A stretch of 64,000 nucleotides of DNA from positions 38,397,454 through 38,461,453 of the forward strand of contig NC_054712.1 in the NCBI RefSeq assembly GCF_016097555.1, read 5' to 3'. The notes below the pieces were generated by a model. That model saw only the letters and a program-made list of their open reading frames with translations, did not search any database and was not told the origin of the DNA. This DNA is from Gigantopelta aegis (Eukaryota > Mollusca > Gastropoda > Neomphalida > Peltospiridae). This document shows positions 4,000 to 58,015 of this stretch, piece after piece (position 1 is the stretch's first letter; each line of letters opens with the position of its first letter). The position numbers and the translations under genes are program-made.

Positions 4000-5030
4000 T
4001 GGAGACAAGTACGTGTACGTTGCAGTGGGAAACGGAGTTTTGGTTCACGATAATTCTCTGGTCACTTACGACCAATTCACGAATACGAACAGCGCTGGTG
4101 GTACAAAGCTCTGCGTGGCCATAGCACATCGGACACACTGCCGATAGCAATATATACCCTGCGGCGGGTTTACTCGTACTGCATTTGCGAATTCGGTCTT
4201 CAGATGCATCACAGTATTCTGTTTTCTGGCTTTGTTGGACTAATAAGCTTTCACAAATGCAAGTACATTTATTTTTGTTTCTTCACAAATTAACACTGTT
4301 AACACCACGCGCTGATATAAATTTAAATGATGTAACCCCCCCCCCCCCCCAAAAAAAAAAAAAAAAAAACCCACAAAAAAAAACACACACAAAAAACAAC
4401 AATAAACAAAAAATACAAAACAACAACATCACTAGAGCGCATTGATTTATTAATCATCGGCTATTGGATGTTAAACGAAATATATTACTTAAAGTATAAA
4501 AATTCGGTGGGTAATTTTTACTATTTATGCTTGTTCTTACAAATAAAAAAGTGTTTTCCACGCAATGTCATAATTTTTTTTTTCTTTTTCGTATTTTTCT
4601 CATTGTAATTGTAAAGCTTTTCGGGAATGGCTGAGACAACTAGCTAATCATTTGTCTAATGCTAGGCTCACACTATCAACTGCCAGAAAAAAGTTGGCCA
4701 ACTATCTGCTGTCGCGACTGTCTGAGCGCTCTTACAACTCGATTCTCGCCGTATATCACATTTTTACTTGTTAAACTGAGACTGGAGTTGGGGAAATTAC
4801 AACTCAACCGTCGAATTGACCAACGCGCGGGAAATCTGTACAACAATAAACATTTGTGCTGAATAGCTATTGATTCATTGTTATTAAAAAAAACTAATAA
4901 ATAAAAAATAAGTACATCAAAAACAGCGTACTATTGGACTGTTGTGTGTGTTGTTAGTAGATGTCTCGTTATTGTGAAACACTTCGATTTATTTCCGCAA
5001 TCAATGAGTACGGTATATGTCATACAGTAC
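4000..5030. other. No gene recognised; A/C homopolymer runs and SINE tail trace
   Basis: Contains a C-run followed by A-rich low-complexity DNA (4337-4425) and a short minus-strand SINE A tail trace at about 4435-4480 (TTATTAATCATCGGCTATTG). No supported coding region. Confidence 0.45.
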
Positions 5031-15920: not shown

Positions 15921-17160
15921 ATGTCTTTATTCACTTCCATCTTGAAGGACATTGCAGTTGAAACTATTCCTAAGACTTCGGCAGTGCCAAAGCGTTTCAA
16001 TAAACCATGGTTTAATGATACGTGTGAAAATGCATTCAAAGAGCGAAACATGTTGCTTGAGCGGTTCAAACGTGAACCTACAGCAGACAACCTGGATGCA
16101 TTTCGTATTGCTAGGGCTAAGGCTCGCAGAGAGATTAGACAGAGTAAGAAATCATCTTGGAGAACGTTTGTCTCCAAGTTGAATTCACAACATCGGTGAA
16201 ATCTGTCTGGAATAGTATTCGTAAAATCAAAGGTAAAGACTCCAGTAATACAGTTCATCATTTGTCTGTCAATGATACGGATGTCACGTCTCATCGTGAC
16301 ATTGCCAGTGCATTGGCAGACAATTTTTTCTCATAATTCATCTTCTGCTTTCAGTACAGATGCTTTTACATCTGTCCGAACTAAAGCTGAAAAGCAGTCC
16401 ATTAATTTTTCATCCAAAAATGCTGTAGTATACAACAGGCATTTCTCTATGGAGGAATTGCAGGATGCTCTTCGTAGAGCCCATGATACTTCAGTAGGAC
16501 CGGGTGAAATTCATTATCAGTTATTAAAACATTTACCTGAATCATCTTTGATGATTCTTTTGAATATTTTTAATAACATCTGGATTTCTGGTGACTTTCC
16601 TTCTGATTGGAGGAAAGCAATTATTATTCCTATTCCCAAGCCTGGTAAGGATCCAACTAATCCTACTAGTTATCGCCCTATCGCTTTGACAAGTTGCATT
16701 TGTAAAACCATGGAACGAATGATCAAGCTTAGACTCGTCTGGTATCTTGAATCCAACAAATTCCTCACTAACGTACAATGTGGGTTCAGATCTAGACGTA
16801 GCGCGGTTGATCATCTTGATAGATTTGAAACGTTTTGTAGGGAAGCTTTCATCCATAATCAGCACTTGGTTTCAGTGTTTTTTGATTTGGAGAAAGCTTA
16901 CGATACCACGTGGAAGTATGGGATTTTAAACGACCTCCATGGCATGGGCCTTAGAGGTCGTCTTCCTGTTTTTATATCTCAATGTTTAAGACATAGATAT
17001 TTTAAAGTCCGGGTGGGGTCGACTTTGTCCGACATTCACCCACAGGAGATGTGGGTGTACCTCAAGGTAGTATCCTGTCTGTAACTCTATTTTCTGTGAA
17101 AATTAACAGCATCACCCAGTGTTTAACACCTGGTGTGGATTGCTAGTTATATGTTGATGA
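15921..17160 (+). pseudogene. I-group LINE ORF2: reverse transcriptase part
   Basis: Contains the RT blocks in order: SVGPGEIHYQLLKHLP, PIPKPGKDPTNPTSYRPIAL, FFDLEKAYDTTW, GVPQGSIL (in a shifted frame near 17060) and the YVDD box near 17150. The longest continuous piece is 16272-17084. Frame changes near 16200 and 17045 and a stop before YVDD interrupt it. In the active element this enzyme copies RNA at the nicked target. Confidence 0.8.
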
Positions 17161-50439: not shown

Positions 50440-50758
50440 GCCCTAACTTCAAAGCGTGCTGCTGTGGTCGCTCATCACCTGCTTGATATATTCCTTCTCA
50501 TTGGTGCCCCGTCTATTCTCCAGACCGACAACGGAAGTGAATTCACAGCAGTGGTTATCGGTGAACTGAAAATTGTGTGGCCCAGGCTGGTTATGGTCCA
50601 TGGTAAACCTCGACACCCTCAAAGTCAGGGGTCGGTGGAAAGGGCAAATAGTGATCACCATAATATGCTACCATGTTTGGATGTGAAGCCAAAGTTGGCT
50701 TGACATCATCGTCTTTGCCAACAGAGGTGGTTGTACGGATGCAAAGTGAGGATGATCT
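50440..50758 (+). pseudogene. Ginger integrase-like transposase, core fragment
   Basis: Encodes VAHHLLDIFLLIGAPSILQT, DNGSEFTAVVIGEL and HGKPRHPQSQGSVERAN, the second and third parts of the DDE integrase core (rve fold) as in KRBA2/SCAND3-like proteins. The first catalytic region is missing upstream. The fragment ends at the insertion point of the nested transposon. Confidence 0.75.
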
Positions 50759-50762
50759 TATA

Positions 50763-51218
50763 GGTATCTCACCACTATTGATTATACATTGGTGACAGTA
50801 CAAATATAAAGCCAAGCACTGACTAAATTATTAACAGTAGGTGCTATATACTACCTGACATGAAGAGAACAGCCTCTGTGACAGGATTTAAGCAAATAAA
50901 ATTGATACTTCGCCACCTGCAATTTTAATTATCCACTCTCCTAAGCACATGGGCTAATGGAGGGGAGGCTACTCTCGTTAAATATATGTACCACAGGCAT
51001 AGCAAACAATGGTCTTGCTTGTAGCTAAGCAGATATGCATCTGTCAGTTTGATATGCAAAAATCAAGAGGCAATGTTACCCTTCCAATATTCCATAATCA
51101 TACTGTCAAGTCTGTTCAGACACCAACGTAATAAAATAAAGAAAAGAGGTACTCTTTTTCATGGAACTAAATTCGTCGCCTACACGTCGCTCATTGGCTG
51201 AAATAGCGGTGTGATCCC
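50763..51218 (+). repeat. Left terminal direct repeat, 456 bp
   Basis: Starts GGTATCTCACCACTATTG and ends AATAGCGGTGTGATCCC, so the repeat itself has inverted termini like a MITE. It matches 54572-55017 almost base for base, with extra sequence near TCGCCTACACGTCGC. Confidence 0.9.
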
Positions 51219-51882
51219 TTAAGAGGGGGTTTGGAATGGGATAGCTAGTCAGTTTTGACACATGACATACTATGACGCATACCTAGTAGGAAAACACCAA
51301 ATTTGGTCATGTCTTCTAATATGCATTAATGCAAGAGGCCATGAAGATTGGCCCGGGGGTTAGCAACACTGGGCTGAAATAATAGAAAATTAAGCTTCTC
51401 CACACCTCAAGTTCACCTGACCAAAGTTATAACATGGAGGTGACATTCCAAATGTTTGCTGTTGTATAATGGGGGGTACAAGACCATACTGGGTACTGGC
51501 ATATTTTAATATGTCATATGCATGAACTTTTATTAAAAATTTAATTTAAATATTGGATTTGGCAAATTCAAGTGAGCCACAAAAAGGTTATTTTGGGACA
51601 GTATGAGAGGGAAGTATGCACACTGGCAGCTGTCAACGGGACACATGGGCAATTTCAAACTGGGAGTGAACTGAAGCCTAAAGTATCTGATGGCTGAGAG
51701 AACTGATCACAATCATAAACAAATTCAAAACAGAACACGCATCAGTTTACTGCATGAGAGTATTTATTAACATAACACACACCACAGGTTCCATTCCACT
51801 GAAGACTGCTACATGCTAAGAGATACAAAAGTTCACAGTTTTCCGTATACTAAGAGAATATACTACACCCAGTGTGCTAACA

Positions 51883-53895
51883 ATGAAGCCAAAGAAAAAT
51901 CCAACAGAAAACCTGCACAACAAGGGTGCCTTTCAAAAGGGACACCAATGTCTGTTCAAAAGAACTATAGGTGTTACTAAAACAAAGTGTCTTAAGCCTG
52001 AAGGTGACAACATACCAGTTACCATGAGACTTAGTCAAGAAGAATTCAACGCTGTGGTACACCACTGTGATAGACAGTCATACATCGTCAAGGATGCGGA
52101 TGGAATTCCCAGTGACATTAGACTTCTCCGACCAACACGGATCTCAACTGGAGGTGGTACACAGGCAGGCGAGTTCCTGAAAGCAAAAATGGACATGAAT
52201 GATTCCAAAAGTATACACTGTGGTATGCTTCTAAAGATGTTTAATGACAGTAATGAAGACCACAGACTAGCTTCTCCAGGGTGCACTGGCAAGTACACAT
52301 GGAATTTAGACTTGTGTCAGAAATGGGGCCTGTGCACCCGTGCAGGACTGAGATGTCAAAAGTGTTCATTCACAAGTAAAAAATACAAACTGTATGAAGA
52401 GACAACACAGAATACTAGGAGGGGGCCAAAATCAGCAAAGCCAAATGTCGGTGTACACGTAGGACTACAGAGCACATCTGTCGGTGTTACCGGTTTCCGG
52501 GGAATAATGCTGTGTGCTGGAGTCACACCCCCAGCTACCAGCGGAATGCAGAATACTGCCAACGAAGTGGGACGAGTGACAACCAGTCTCAATAAACTTG
52601 ACATGTCCACACGCAGAGCAGACTTAGTACAACTGAACATTAATAGGGGATTTTCAGCTGACCATCCCATTGCCATAGGAGACTGCCGGTACAACAATCC
52701 TCTTTCAAGTGGGTGCGGTTCAACACCATTTCAACCGGCTACACAAGCAACTTACACTATGGTGGAAAATGAGACTGGCAAGAAACAAATAATAGGACTT
52801 TACACAGGAAATAAACTCTGCAAGGCTCGTGAGCTTCAAGCAGCGAGAGAAAATAGACTAATACTCTGCCCCGATCATACAGGTACCTGTACAGCAAATC
52901 TCCGGCTTGACGACACAATAGGAGACGAAGAAGATTCTGCAGCTCAGTGTTCAAGTGACTTCTCATCAGACGTCTCTCCACTCACGATTGGATTCTTCAC
53001 GACTGATGGCGATTCCCATGCCGTGTCCGGATTACAGTCATCCCAGAGCAAAATATCTAAAGTGAAGATAAAAAATCTGAGAGACACCCGTCATTTATCC
53101 GAATCACAAAGGAAGTTTACAGAAAGGGTCAAGTTCAGTGACAACATGTTCCCTGGAAAAACAAAAGCTGAACGAGAAAAGGTTAAAAAAAGATTTGCTA
53201 TCGACTTGAGACGGCGCTGCCACAGTGAATATACATCGGCACACAACCAACTTGCCGGCAACATGAACAAGTTAGTAAGCAAACTGTCTTACACTGCTAC
53301 GAGTATACTATATTGTGTGACTGAGAAATGTGGAGCAACATGCAGAAAACATTCCTTTGTGTGCTCAGGGGTGAAAAAGGGACGATCAAACATGACATTC
53401 ATGCCTACCGGTACAAAGTTAAATGTCACGGTAGAGGACGAGGCACTGATTAAACAATGCATAGACATAAGACTGGGTGTAAAAGCCATTGAGAAGACTA
53501 AACTGAACACAAATACTCAAAAGTGTGAGAGCGTCAACAGAGCATACAGCAGAACAAATCCAAAAACTGTTACATACCATAGAAATTTCACCAGCCGCAT
53601 ACACAGTGCCGTGCATATGCTGAACAGTGGGTTTTCAAGTTCGGTCATTCAAAGATGTACAGCTGTGGGAGCTGGGGTACGTGACAAAACATCGGTCATA
53701 TGCCACTTGAAGAGCATCGAGCGGATAGCCAGGAGACATGCGAGTCGTCAACGAACACAACAATTCCAAGCCAGGAGGGCATCTCTAAGAAGAAAAAGAT
53801 ACAATATGTATGATAGACTTCATCGGACAATAACATATTCAAAAAACTTACTCGACCCCGAACTGAACTATAACTCTGTCGGCAAAAAACTGTGA
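51883..53895 (+). CDS. Mutator-like transposase, intact frame
   Basis: 670 codons from ATG 51883; the frame is open from a GTG at 51874, but the ATG is preferred. The N-terminal region carries cysteine pairs (GCTGKYTWNLDLC, RCQKCSFTSKKYKLY, about residues 134-171). Then come NVGVHVGLQSTSVG, GMQNTANEVG and HPIAIGDCRYNN (Asp 267), FFTTDGDSHAVSG (Asp 375/377), a CRKHSFVCSG block and TQKCESVNRAYSRTNPKTV (Glu 549), then RNFTSRIHSAVHMLNSG. This order matches, from memory, the Mutator-like transposase domain found in many marine invertebrate proteins; D-D-E assignments are inferred. The C-terminus is strongly basic (RRASLRRKR). No frameshift or stop is seen, so the enzyme may still be functional. 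It lies between two direct repeats inside a Ginger element. Confidence 0.75.
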   Translation: MKPKKNPTENLHNKGAFQKGHQCLFKRTIGVTKTKCLKPEGDNIPVTMRLSQEEFNAVVHHCDRQSYIVKDADGIPSDIRLLRPTRISTGGGTQAGEFLKAKMDMNDSKSIHCGMLLKMFNDSNEDHRLASPGCTGKYTWNLDLCQKWGLCTRAGLRCQKCSFTSKKYKLYEETTQNTRRGPKSAKPNVGVHVGLQSTSVGVTGFRGIMLCAGVTPPATSGMQNTANEVGRVTTSLNKLDMSTRRADLVQLNINRGFSADHPIAIGDCRYNNPLSSGCGSTPFQPATQATYTMVENETGKKQIIGLYTGNKLCKARELQAARENRLILCPDHTGTCTANLRLDDTIGDEEDSAAQCSSDFSSDVSPLTIGFFTTDGDSHAVSGLQSSQSKISKVKIKNLRDTRHLSESQRKFTERVKFSDNMFPGKTKAEREKVKKRFAIDLRRRCHSEYTSAHNQLAGNMNKLVSKLSYTATSILYCVTEKCGATCRKHSFVCSGVKKGRSNMTFMPTGTKLNVTVEDEALIKQCIDIRLGVKAIEKTKLNTNTQKCESVNRAYSRTNPKTVTYHRNFTSRIHSAVHMLNSGFSSSVIQRCTAVGAGVRDKTSVICHLKSIERIARRHASRQRTQQFQARRASLRRKRYNMYDRLHRTITYSKNLLDPELNYNSVGKKL

Positions 53896-53913
53896 ACACT
53901 CGGTAAATTCTTT

Positions 53914-53921
<8 letters not shown>

Positions 53922-53988
<67 letters not shown>
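53922..53988. repeat. (TA)n microsatellite, then (TATG)n
   Basis: About 33 TA units and a short TATG run just after the transposase stop. Confidence 0.95.
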
Positions 53989-53991
<3 letters not shown>

Positions 53992-54571
53992 ATAATTTTG
54001 TATGTATGTATGTATGTATGTATGTATTTATTTATTTACCTTAACTATTATAAAATGCAATCTGGATATATACCATGGCCTGAACATTTCTTTGGAACCA
54101 TATTTCTACAGTGCTGCCTTTGATTATTGATTACATGTGGCTCTAGACTTAAGTGGTGTATACTGACACACAAACTATGGAGACATAAGTGAGAAACATG
54201 AAAAGATTTTGGTAAAGTGACTGATTTGATATGAATCATGTATCGAAACCTGTGAACATTAATTGGCTTGTGTTTATCCTGACCTGGTATATCCATTCCA
54301 TAATACACAATTATTTACATTACTCTGTCTTGTGTTTCTATTAATTTTATGCAAAGTGGTGGCTACCCACAGTGCATTCATGCTATATTTCCTTAATTAT
54401 TATGCTAATTAGTGCTGATTAAAATATCCACCACACTTCAAAAAACAAAAATGTGTAGCCTAGTGTGTGCCGATGCTCTGAGAACACGAAAGCACATGGC
54501 TGGTGAAGTTTGCACCAATTACAACATGGTCACGGCCGGGCCGGTGCTATGCACTGGTAAAATAGTGTTTA

Positions 54572-55017
54572 GGTATCTCACCACTATTGATTATACATTG
54601 GTGACAGTACAAATATAAAGCCAAGCACTGACTAAATTATTAACAGTAGGTGCTATATACTACCTGACATGAAGAGAACAGCCTCTGTGACAGGATTTAA
54701 GCAAATAAAATTGATACTTCGCCACCTGCAATTTTAATTATCCACTCTCCTAAGCACATGGGCTAATGGAGGGGAGGCTACTCTCGTTAAATATATGTAC
54801 CACAGGCATAGCAAACAATGGTCTTGCTTGTAGCTAAGCAGATATGCATCTGTCAGTTTGATATGCCAAAATCAAGAGGCAATGTTACCCTTCCAATATT
54901 CCATAATCATACTGTCAAGTCTGTTCAGACACCATCGTAATAAAATAAAGAAAAGAGGTACTCTTTTTCATGGAACTAAATTCGTTTGCTCATTGGCTGA
55001 AATAGCGGTGTGATCCC
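54572..55017 (+). repeat. Right terminal direct repeat, 446 bp
   Basis: Same orientation as 50763-51218 and nearly identical; its outer end is the right end of the transposon. Confidence 0.9.
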
Positions 55018-55020
55018 TAT

Positions 55021-55660
55021 ATCTGCCGTATCCAATTTACCAACCGTCCTAGAACATACCACTGCACCTCATGCTGCTGATATACACGAATCAGTACCAA
55101 GCACCTGTCAGGAACCAATACCAAGCAGCAGTCATGAAGTCATGCCAAAACCTAGTCGGGAACCAGAGAGTGGGACAGGAACCTGATCCTGATATGCCAG
55201 TGCTCTCAGCTACGATTGGTTTAGTTTCAGATTCAACACCAGAATATGGCGGTCCACCTCTGATAAGTCCTGCTCCAGTTGCTGTCCCGGCTGATTTACT
55301 CCAGGCTCACATACACAATATCTTAAATGAGAGAAATGGTGCGAATTCCTCCCAGATGAGCGTATGGTCAAAAGGAGTAGACTGGAGCTAATAAGTGGAC
55401 AAGTGGGAGACAACGTAGCTCTTGTGGATAGGGGACGCAGTGACCGGCGAAATATTCTCGAAATAATCATAGACCGTGATGAGAACGTGATAAAAGGTAA
55501 GTTTACACGCAATCAGTTTGATTTGTGCCCCCAGCGTTTACTTACTGATGCCGATGAAAACCGTACAAAGTCAGTGACCTTACGCCAAGCTGTTAATCAC
55601 GAATCCAACTGTGGTGGACAGGGATATGTTAGGTGTAACTGTGCTGGTCTTAAGAGATGA
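55021..55660 (+). pseudogene. Ginger-associated C-terminal region
   Basis: Past the nested element, the plus strand encodes RSRLELISGQVGDNVALVD, NVIKGKFTRNQFDLCPQRLL and HESNCGGQGYVRCNCAG. This is the C-terminal module of KRBA2/SCAND3-like integrase proteins, with the start of their cysteine-rich tail. The region is incomplete and broken. Confidence 0.7.
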
Positions 55661-56480: not shown

Positions 56481-57079
56481 CAAAACATTTATGTACGAAT
56501 TTTTCATCGACCATTTCACGTCAGTCGCAAAGTAAGTTATTATAAATTCGGAAGTGGAACGAATATATCCTAGATCATGTTATTTATTTAGCACCAATCA
56601 GTAATTATCTTTCTAGTACAGACAATTGTACTACGATAATAGTTAGCTGAATGAATCTTGCATGTAACACCAATCAATTGGTGAGCCTAGGCAGGCCTCG
56701 CCGTATTACTTTAATCATTTTAATCGCTACTCTTCGCATGAGCGTCTGCATATTTTGTTTTTAACTTGAAATACAGGAGAGATCAATGTAATGCAGTGAT
56801 TGCAACAATAGCAGGTAAAGGGCCCCCGCCTGTGCTTCGTGCACTTTTCTCAACGTTGTCGCAAAAGATTCTACAACAGCATAATAAAGAACGATTTTTT
56901 AAATTAATAAATATTTATAAATACAAACTACCAGTGTGTTTGTTGTTTGTTTATTTAATGGTGATAAATAATAGTTACAAATATGTATTTGACGTCGACT
57001 TCCTTACTCATGAATCAATCGGACCATCTCGCCCAAGCCAGTTTTACGGAAATATGCGAGGTGTTCCGACATCGTCAGT

Positions 57080-58015
57080 GCACAGTCTCGTCAGAAGGAG
57101 AATTATGACCGTCACCATGAAAGCAACAAAGAGATTATCACAGGGTCTATAGTCTACATACAAAACAGTCGACATATACACAGGATGGGATCCAAGCTGG
57201 AACCGCGCTGGCCTGGTGCATATACTGTTGTTGAGTGCCCCAGCAAAGGCCGTGTCAAGCTAAAAAATGTAAAATCCACCTTCCACGCCAGCAACCTCAA
57301 GATCTACACAGATGCCACATCAACATCAGGTGTTCCCCATGTCCGTGTGCACTCAACCATTCCTGACCGCCCCTGTGACACCACAGAGGACACGCCCCAG
57401 CAACACAAGAGACCAACGAGGGAGCTAGACGAGACCAGTGACACAACAGAATGCGTCAGCAAAAAACCCAAGTCGATCAGTATGTTCAGCCCACTCTCCA
57501 GCAATGCCCGGAAGAACCTCGTAGCAGCGCTGGGTCTGACAACAACAAAATCAATATACTTTGGAAAACCCGCTGAACTATCACAGCCAAAACGAACGTA
57601 CAAGACCAAACGCGATGGCAACTGCTACTTCGGATCCATCAGTTATATACTCACAGGATCAGTGGAGAGCCATGGCATCATCTGAGATCGAGTCGAGCAG
57701 CACATGAACACTGACATCACCACGAAGCTCCAACACTACCTGAACCAAAATGTTAATGACTATGTGACTGACTCTGGAATCTCATTGGATGGAATATGGA
57801 CGAGGTCAGCCAGTCTGATGGGATATGGCGTTGCAGTATATACCAAGTTTGGCCATTCAATGCAGTGGCTAACGTATCCTGCCAGCTTTAGTCTCCAGAG
57901 CTTGACAGATCATCTTGAGAATGTTTCGGAGCATTTCAATGTTGTAGTCAGTTTTTTACATACGTTTTGTTTACTCATGTTTCACTGTAGTCTGCACTTT
58001 ATTAGTTTCCAATGA
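57080..58015 (+). pseudogene. Integrase C-terminal module joined to an OTU-type protease, Ginger-like
   Basis: The plus strand encodes KLEPRWPGAYTVVECPSKG and HASNLKIYTD, the SH3-like C-terminal module of Ginger/Gypsy-type integrases. After a basic linker comes TKRDGNCYFGSISYILTG, the DGNC block with the active-site cysteine of OTU deubiquitinases. Further OTU sequence (LMGYGVAVYTKFGHSMQWLT, VSEHFNVVVSF) follows after a stop at 57683-57685 and in a slightly different register. Some Ginger elements are known to carry OTU proteases. No inverted ends were found, so this is a partial, inactive copy. Confidence 0.65.

Follow-up and report, generated by a model that had tools for sequence, protein, structure and literature searches.

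How does a DNA transposon come to be bounded by long direct repeats, as a long terminal repeat (LTR) retrotransposon is, when each of those repeats has inverted termini of its own and a transposase gene lies between them? The question is raised by an element at positions 50763-55017 of a 64,000-nucleotide stretch of the genome of the gastropod Gigantopelta aegis (contig NC_054712.1, positions 38,397,454 to 38,461,453), which in its full length is referred to here as the window. The element is very probably a DNA transposon of the KolobokP type, for which the entire block and the lone repeat are both likely units of movement; cleavage by its I-PpoI-like nuclease is predicted at the inner borders of the repeats. 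This architecture is not new, having been described as KolobokP by Kojima and Bao (2022, Mob DNA 13:24, PMC9587614). A preliminary description of the locus had offered both a composite-transposon-like arrangement and a new transposon architecture. The former stands, the published KolobokP lineage being described likewise; the latter does not, the architecture having been published in 2022 with G. aegis among the tabulated genomes, where it is listed with seven families (PMC9587614).

The 4255-bp block consists of an internal region (INT) of 3353 bp between two long terminal direct repeats (LTDRs) of 456 and 446 bp, and its parts, in window coordinates, are as follows.

50759..50762, no strand: left target-site duplication, TATA
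50763..51218, plus strand: left LTDR, 456 bp, 98-100% identical to its matches in the same genome
50763..50779, plus strand: left inverted terminus of the left LTDR, 14/17 inverted matches
51202..51218, minus strand: right inverted terminus of the left LTDR
51213..51227, minus strand: left inner border, CCCTCTTAA followed by GGGATC, matching the I-PpoI site at 12/15 positions, the top-scoring 15-mer of the whole element
51219..54571, plus strand: INT, 3353 bp
51883..53895, plus strand: DDE transposase, 670 amino acids, PF20700, with D267, D375, D377, H404 and E549 invariant across 14 sequences
53917..53988, no strand: TA microsatellite downstream of the transposase
54048..54314, minus strand: I-PpoI-like nuclease of the His-Me finger type, in frame for its C-terminal part, broken in the window copy (PF05551, E 6.1e-8; 58% identity over 69 amino acids to P0066)
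54274..54396, minus strand: likely N-terminal part of the nuclease in another frame, placed by eye against sister copies, without a Pfam match alone
54563..54577, plus strand: right inner border, TAGTGTTTA followed by GGTATC, matching the I-PpoI site at 9/15 positions
54572..55017, plus strand: right LTDR, 446 bp, with a 10-bp gap relative to the left
55018..55021, no strand: right target-site duplication, TATA

The repeats are as close as the preliminary description had it, with identity at 443 of 446 aligned positions and a single 10-bp gap. Each has 17-bp inverted termini, GGTATCTCACCACTATT and GGGATCACACCGCTATT, which match at 14 of 17 positions, a level reached by 23 of 200,000 random 17-mer pairs from the window, and in both units the ends read GG...CC (5'-RR ... 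YY-3'). The outer flanks are TATA on both sides, an agreement found for a random 4-mer pair from the window 0.5% of the time, so that the inverted termini and the TATA duplication reported earlier are both upheld. No such agreement links inner to outer flanks, unit 1 lying between TATA and TTAA and unit 2 between TTTA and TATA. KolobokP elements are described as having LTDRs near 450 or 660 bp in length, every one of them ending in inverted termini of 11-18 bp, around an INT that encodes a DDE transposase followed downstream by an oppositely oriented I-PpoI-like nuclease; they occur also as solo LTDRs and as multimers of the form (LTDR-INT)n-LTDR, and make 3-5-bp duplications with no strong target preference (PMC9587614). 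The window element shares with these (i) the LTDR-INT-LTDR plan, with an LTDR of about 450 bp, short inverted termini and GG..CC ends, (ii) a transposase on one strand and a nuclease downstream of it on the other, (iii) the existence of solo LTDRs and, in related families, of multimers, and (iv) duplications of 3-4 bp without a fixed target. At 4255 bp it also lies inside the length range of oyster families, 4022-4748 (PMC9587614), and it differs in that the nuclease of the window copy is broken.

The block recurs in its own genome. With the left LTDR as query, 40 matches of 98-100% identity were scored out of 308 candidates, in 32 places including the window, and an exact 30-base pattern of the LTDR ends occurs 85 times, against none for the reversed control, with 10 pairs lying 3.75-3.97 kb apart. 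The 20 higher-ranked of the 31 places other than the window were fetched, and they hold both further copies and the solo units of about 450 bp: eight solo LTDRs and 12 loci with an INT, seven of these being composites with both ends of both LTDRs and five (L013, L016, L023, L026 and L028) having a damaged or missing LTDR or INT. Wherever both inner borders are kept, their bases are the same, TTAAGA on one side and TGTTTA on the other (10/10 copies, window included), and the outer flanks differ. Target duplications of 3-4 bp are found in all 17 copies, again counting the window, in which neither outer end is lost (4 bp in 13 copies and 3 bp in four, the latter TTA); the remaining four of the 21 copies were left out of this count for lost ends. 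For the solo LTDR at L014 the joined flanks match 26 related stretches that span the join, 16 of them gap-free within 15 bases, and because these stretches span the empty site the 456-bp repeat there is a real insertion, with ATAA as its duplication. The eight solo LTDRs depart from the majority repeat sequence at 0-3 positions, and such low divergence suggests recent activity. The near identity of the two window repeats does fit the recent movement that had been read from it, though recombination between LTDRs could also keep repeats alike.

Several observations on individual loci belong with this survey. At L023 (C15:37115500-37125000) the INT DNA is about 97% identical over positions 1-2730, yet the transposase reading is 65-76% identical and contains 14 stops. 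Multimers are present in related families, with one repeat between units: in family F2 at L029 (C11:26318300-26327400), with spacings of 3718 and 3715 bp, and in F6 at L036 (C4:77512000-77520500), with a spacing of 4078 bp. A family-2 frame of this genome and the G. aegis protein P0003 share 98% identity over 469 residues.

The assignment rests also on the protein encoded within the INT. The unbroken 670-codon frame noted in the preliminary description runs from an ATG at 51883 to a stop that ends at 53895, and comparison with Pfam identifies it as a Mutator-like transposase of PF20700 (E 3.6e-43; score 148 bits, cut-off 26.5), as had been expected of it. In an alignment of the window protein with 13 of the 65 homologues found, the residues D267, D375, D377, H404 (within DTRH) and E549 are invariant, as are the cysteines C313, C336, C478, C487 and C494. 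KolobokP transposases are described as DDE enzymes with a DxxH motif and zinc-finger cysteines, and the invariant residues, assigned by eye to the published motifs, agree with the Kolobok signature D, D, C/DxxH, E (PMC9587614). A structure model of the transposase has a mean pLDDT (predicted local distance difference test score) of 75, and a fold search with it gave the ISCth4 transposase as a weak top match (E 2.9e-4, with a template-modelling score of only 0.28 by query length). A scan of prokaryotic genome contigs with the transposase found no relative.

Downstream of the transposase, and missed in the preliminary description, the minus strand carries the remnant of a His-Me nuclease. An 88-codon frame at 54048-54314 matches PF05551, the zinc-binding loop of homing endonucleases, with an E of 6.1e-8 (33.4 bits, the cut-off being 27), and is 58% identical over 69 residues to a 123-residue homologue, P0066. 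The in-frame match in the window is limited to residues 55-121 of P0066, the apparent N-terminal part (54274-54396) lying in another frame and having no Pfam match on its own. The window copy therefore has an open transposase and a broken nuclease. Among 13 sequences, the window and 12 copies, residues 9-121 of P0066 are stop-free in one frame in seven, and the nuclease of L013 is a 126-codon frame with an ATG. A profile built from four nucleases finds I-PpoI in the PDB (E 5.2e-5); a search of the same database with the 88-residue frame alone gave a chance match only, P0066 and the four-nuclease profile being needed for the connection. In a stretch that likely reads DNA, and that changes together with the border core across five families, the nucleases of L013, L029, L030, L036 and L038 are of two kinds: YGV occurs where the family has TTAA-like borders (two families) and YGRQK where the borders are TATA (three families).

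The element can now be set beside the known systems that it recalls. Canonical Kolobok makes a TTAA-specific 4-bp duplication, from which the window family differs, TTAA being the duplication in just 1 of the 17 copies (L021). With LTR retrotransposons it has in common the long direct terminal repeats and the solo repeats; unlike them, it has a DDE transposase as its single long frame and inverted termini on each repeat, and an LTR retrotransposon is ruled out, since no frame of at least 200 codons other than the PF20700 transposase lies between the repeats (no profile search of shorter frames was made). Like bacterial composite transposons, in which two insertion sequence copies surround a cargo, it has end units with inverted termini of their own flanking a gene segment, but the transposase sits centrally and not in the end units, and the inner borders resemble one duplicated target in four of the five families here and not two unrelated ones. 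The MuDR/Mutator superfamily proper makes target duplications of about 9 bp and is ruled out by those of 3-4 bp. With I-PpoI itself, a His-Cys box homing endonuclease, the likeness lies in the nuclease profile and in border DNA that resembles the 15-bp I-PpoI site; the differences are that the window nuclease is encoded by a transposon and not by a group I intron, and that the core is TATA in three of the five families.

How might such an element move and multiply? The transposase would pair the inverted termini of any two LTDR ends. Pairing of the outer ends would move the composite, and pairing of the two ends of one LTDR would move that LTDR alone, as in the single-LTDR excision reported in Corbicula (PMC9587614). 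The nuclease would recognise the LTDR/INT border and break the DNA beside homologous LTDRs, after which repair between LTDRs would give solo LTDRs and repair with the sister chromatid would give multimers. The two LTDRs of a composite would go back to a single insertion, doubled afterwards by way of a circle or a tandem array, and not to two insertions, because the tips of the INT, set in the order of a circle or multimer, resemble one duplicated target. For the window family they read T[TTA]-repeat-[TTA]A, the same form as in four real insertions (L010, L012, L015 and L027), and for F3, F4 and F6 they read TATA-repeat-TATA, a form stated also for KolobokP-1_MeMe (PMC9587614). The tips of F2, TTCA and TTAA, fit the view of one duplicated target more poorly.

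The target proposed for the nuclease comes from the inner borders themselves. I-PpoI recognises a site with the consensus CTCTCTTAAGGTAGC (PMC6294500) and its cut leaves TTAA overhangs (PMC9587614). The borders of F2 read GTGTCTTCA followed by GGTAGC on one side and, in reverse, TGTTCTTAA followed by GGTTGC on the other. With the register set by the first base of the repeat, the left and right borders match the I-PpoI site at 12 and 9 of 15 positions in the window family (F1), 11 and 12 in F2, 8 and 7 in F3, 9 and 10 in F4, and 8 and 9 in F6. Scans of the whole element for I-PpoI-like 15-mers covered F1, F2 and F3: the top 15-mer is the left border in F1, the top two are both borders in F2, and the top one is neither border in F3. 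TTAA and GG, being features of Kolobok, were excluded from scoring, and the nine other positions were scored against 279 TT[ACT]AGG and 68 TATAGG contexts from the same DNA. Over the ten borders of the five families these positions give 49 matches where about 21 are expected (0/200,000 draws), a significance that the draws overstate, the five families being related and their termini shared. The idea came from F1 and F2; F3, F4 and F6, fetched after it had arisen, by themselves give 27 matches against 12.7 expected (0/200,000). The INT side alone has 24 of 50 matches against 11.2 expected (6/200,000), and for F3, F4 and F6 14 against 6.7 (329/200,000). Its score averages 2.4 of 5 at the inner borders and 1.4 of 5 at 34 outer flanks of window-family copies, ten such flanks drawn at random reaching 24 in 2 of 200,000 draws. 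On the repeat side, none of the 256 tetramers scores above TAGC, which ties for first place; on the INT side, CTCTC is outscored by seven of the 1024 pentamers (the best with 28 against 24) and by one of the nine other orders of its own letters. In these counts the repeat ends of F3, F4 and F6 were set one base away from the edges given by BLAST, to read GG..CC with TATA outside, a choice that fits the duplications ATA in F3 and TGTT in F4 (none was read for F6). F5 (L037) was left out, the start of its LTDR not being fixable and the start of its INT being equal to that of F6, and L032, a copy of F2, and L034 and L035, copies of F1, were not counted again. No mention of the likeness between LTDR/INT borders and the I-PpoI site was found in the sections of PMC9587614 consulted. 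The pattern suggests that the nuclease cuts its own element at these borders. The fuller proposal, which we advance tentatively, judging it possible at somewhat below an even chance, is that KolobokP carries its own homing site: the nuclease would recognise both borders, with a consensus near TTCTC-TWWA-GGTAGC, cutting of the element beside its repeats and subsequent repair would shed solos and grow multimers, and the outer ends, which are without the internal half-site, would be spared.

Other explanations have to be weighed for the repeats and for the nuclease alike. The direct repeats might be a local accident, two miniature inverted-repeat transposable elements (MITEs) having inserted independently around an unrelated transposase gene, and the numerous solo LTDRs with duplications of their own would accord with this. 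It is nevertheless extremely improbable: the same border bases recur in all ten two-border copies in spite of different outer flanks, neither unit in the window has a matching flank pair of its own, and ten end pairs 3.75-3.97 kb apart stand out among the 85 exact LTDR ends. Independent insertion, which the preliminary description had kept in view, is excluded by these shared borders at different loci. A subtler possibility is that solo LTDRs arise only through recombination between the two LTDRs of a composite, in the manner of solo LTRs, without the LTDRs being mobile units themselves. The same outer duplications and empty sites would be expected from such a process. Against it stand the presence of both inverted termini on each LTDR and the single-LTDR excision reported in Corbicula (PMC9587614), and we regard it as doubtful though by no means negligible.

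For the nuclease, a target elsewhere, either inside the LTDR or at the abutted inverted termini of a circle, has very nearly an even chance of being the correct one, with the border likeness then reflecting the TTAA-GG heritage of Kolobok and common descent. Both of these targets were proposed by the KolobokP authors (PMC9587614), a TTAA target and 5'-RR termini are general to Kolobok, and families that share ancestry do not provide independent borders; moreover, the F3 borders, at 8/15 and 7/15, are not the top 15-mers of their element, and the INT side is fitted better by the seven pentamers and the one alternative letter order mentioned above. Against such a heritage stand the enrichment at the nine positions outside TTAA-GG over contexts of the same genome, the enrichment of the INT side alone to a level above the outer flanks, and the finding that no other 15-mer in the F1 or F2 element equals the best border score.

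A number of points weigh against the KolobokP reading with its self-cutting nuclease. Multimers of the window family were found at none of the 20 fetched loci, and a search for an INT-INT joint of that family did not rise above the control (4 matches with up to two mismatches, against 2); some KolobokP families are likewise listed without multimers in Table 2 of PMC9587614. The empty sites obtained belong to the solo LTDR at L014 and not to the window insertion. The borders are imperfect in places, L026 reading GTAAGA, L028 being without the right border, and the older copy L034 keeping GTGTTTA on the right and having TTGAAA on the left. Among the matches to the I-PpoI site, those of the F1 right border (9/15) and of both F3 borders (8/15 and 7/15) are weak, and the core is TATA, not TTAA, in three of the five families. 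Compared with the sister copy L013, the window transposase lacks one residue just ahead of the first catalytic aspartate and may be impaired; because the nuclease is broken and the transposase one residue short, the window copy itself may be inactive.

The meaning of the locus lies, first of all, in the recognition of what looked in raw sequence like an LTR-bearing DNA transposon as a member of a documented lineage. What merits further work is the border likeness alone, through which the part played by the KolobokP nuclease can be put to a direct test. If the border hypothesis is true, it supplies the missing target of that nuclease, turns the authors' model of 'induced unequal crossover' into a simple cutting test, and would provide a case of a homing endonuclease with its site inside its own carrier element.

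As for the surroundings, no clear reading frame runs unbroken through the joined flanks of the window insertion. On either side lie decayed integrase-like readings, one at 50500-50740, seen by eye, and one at 57014-57685, with weak MLVIN_C and SH3 matches below cut-off, and the transposon seems to have landed inside an older element. Further away, on the plus strand at 16200-17084 of the window, lies a reverse transcriptase fragment (PF00078, E 6.7e-15), probably of a non-LTR retrotransposon.

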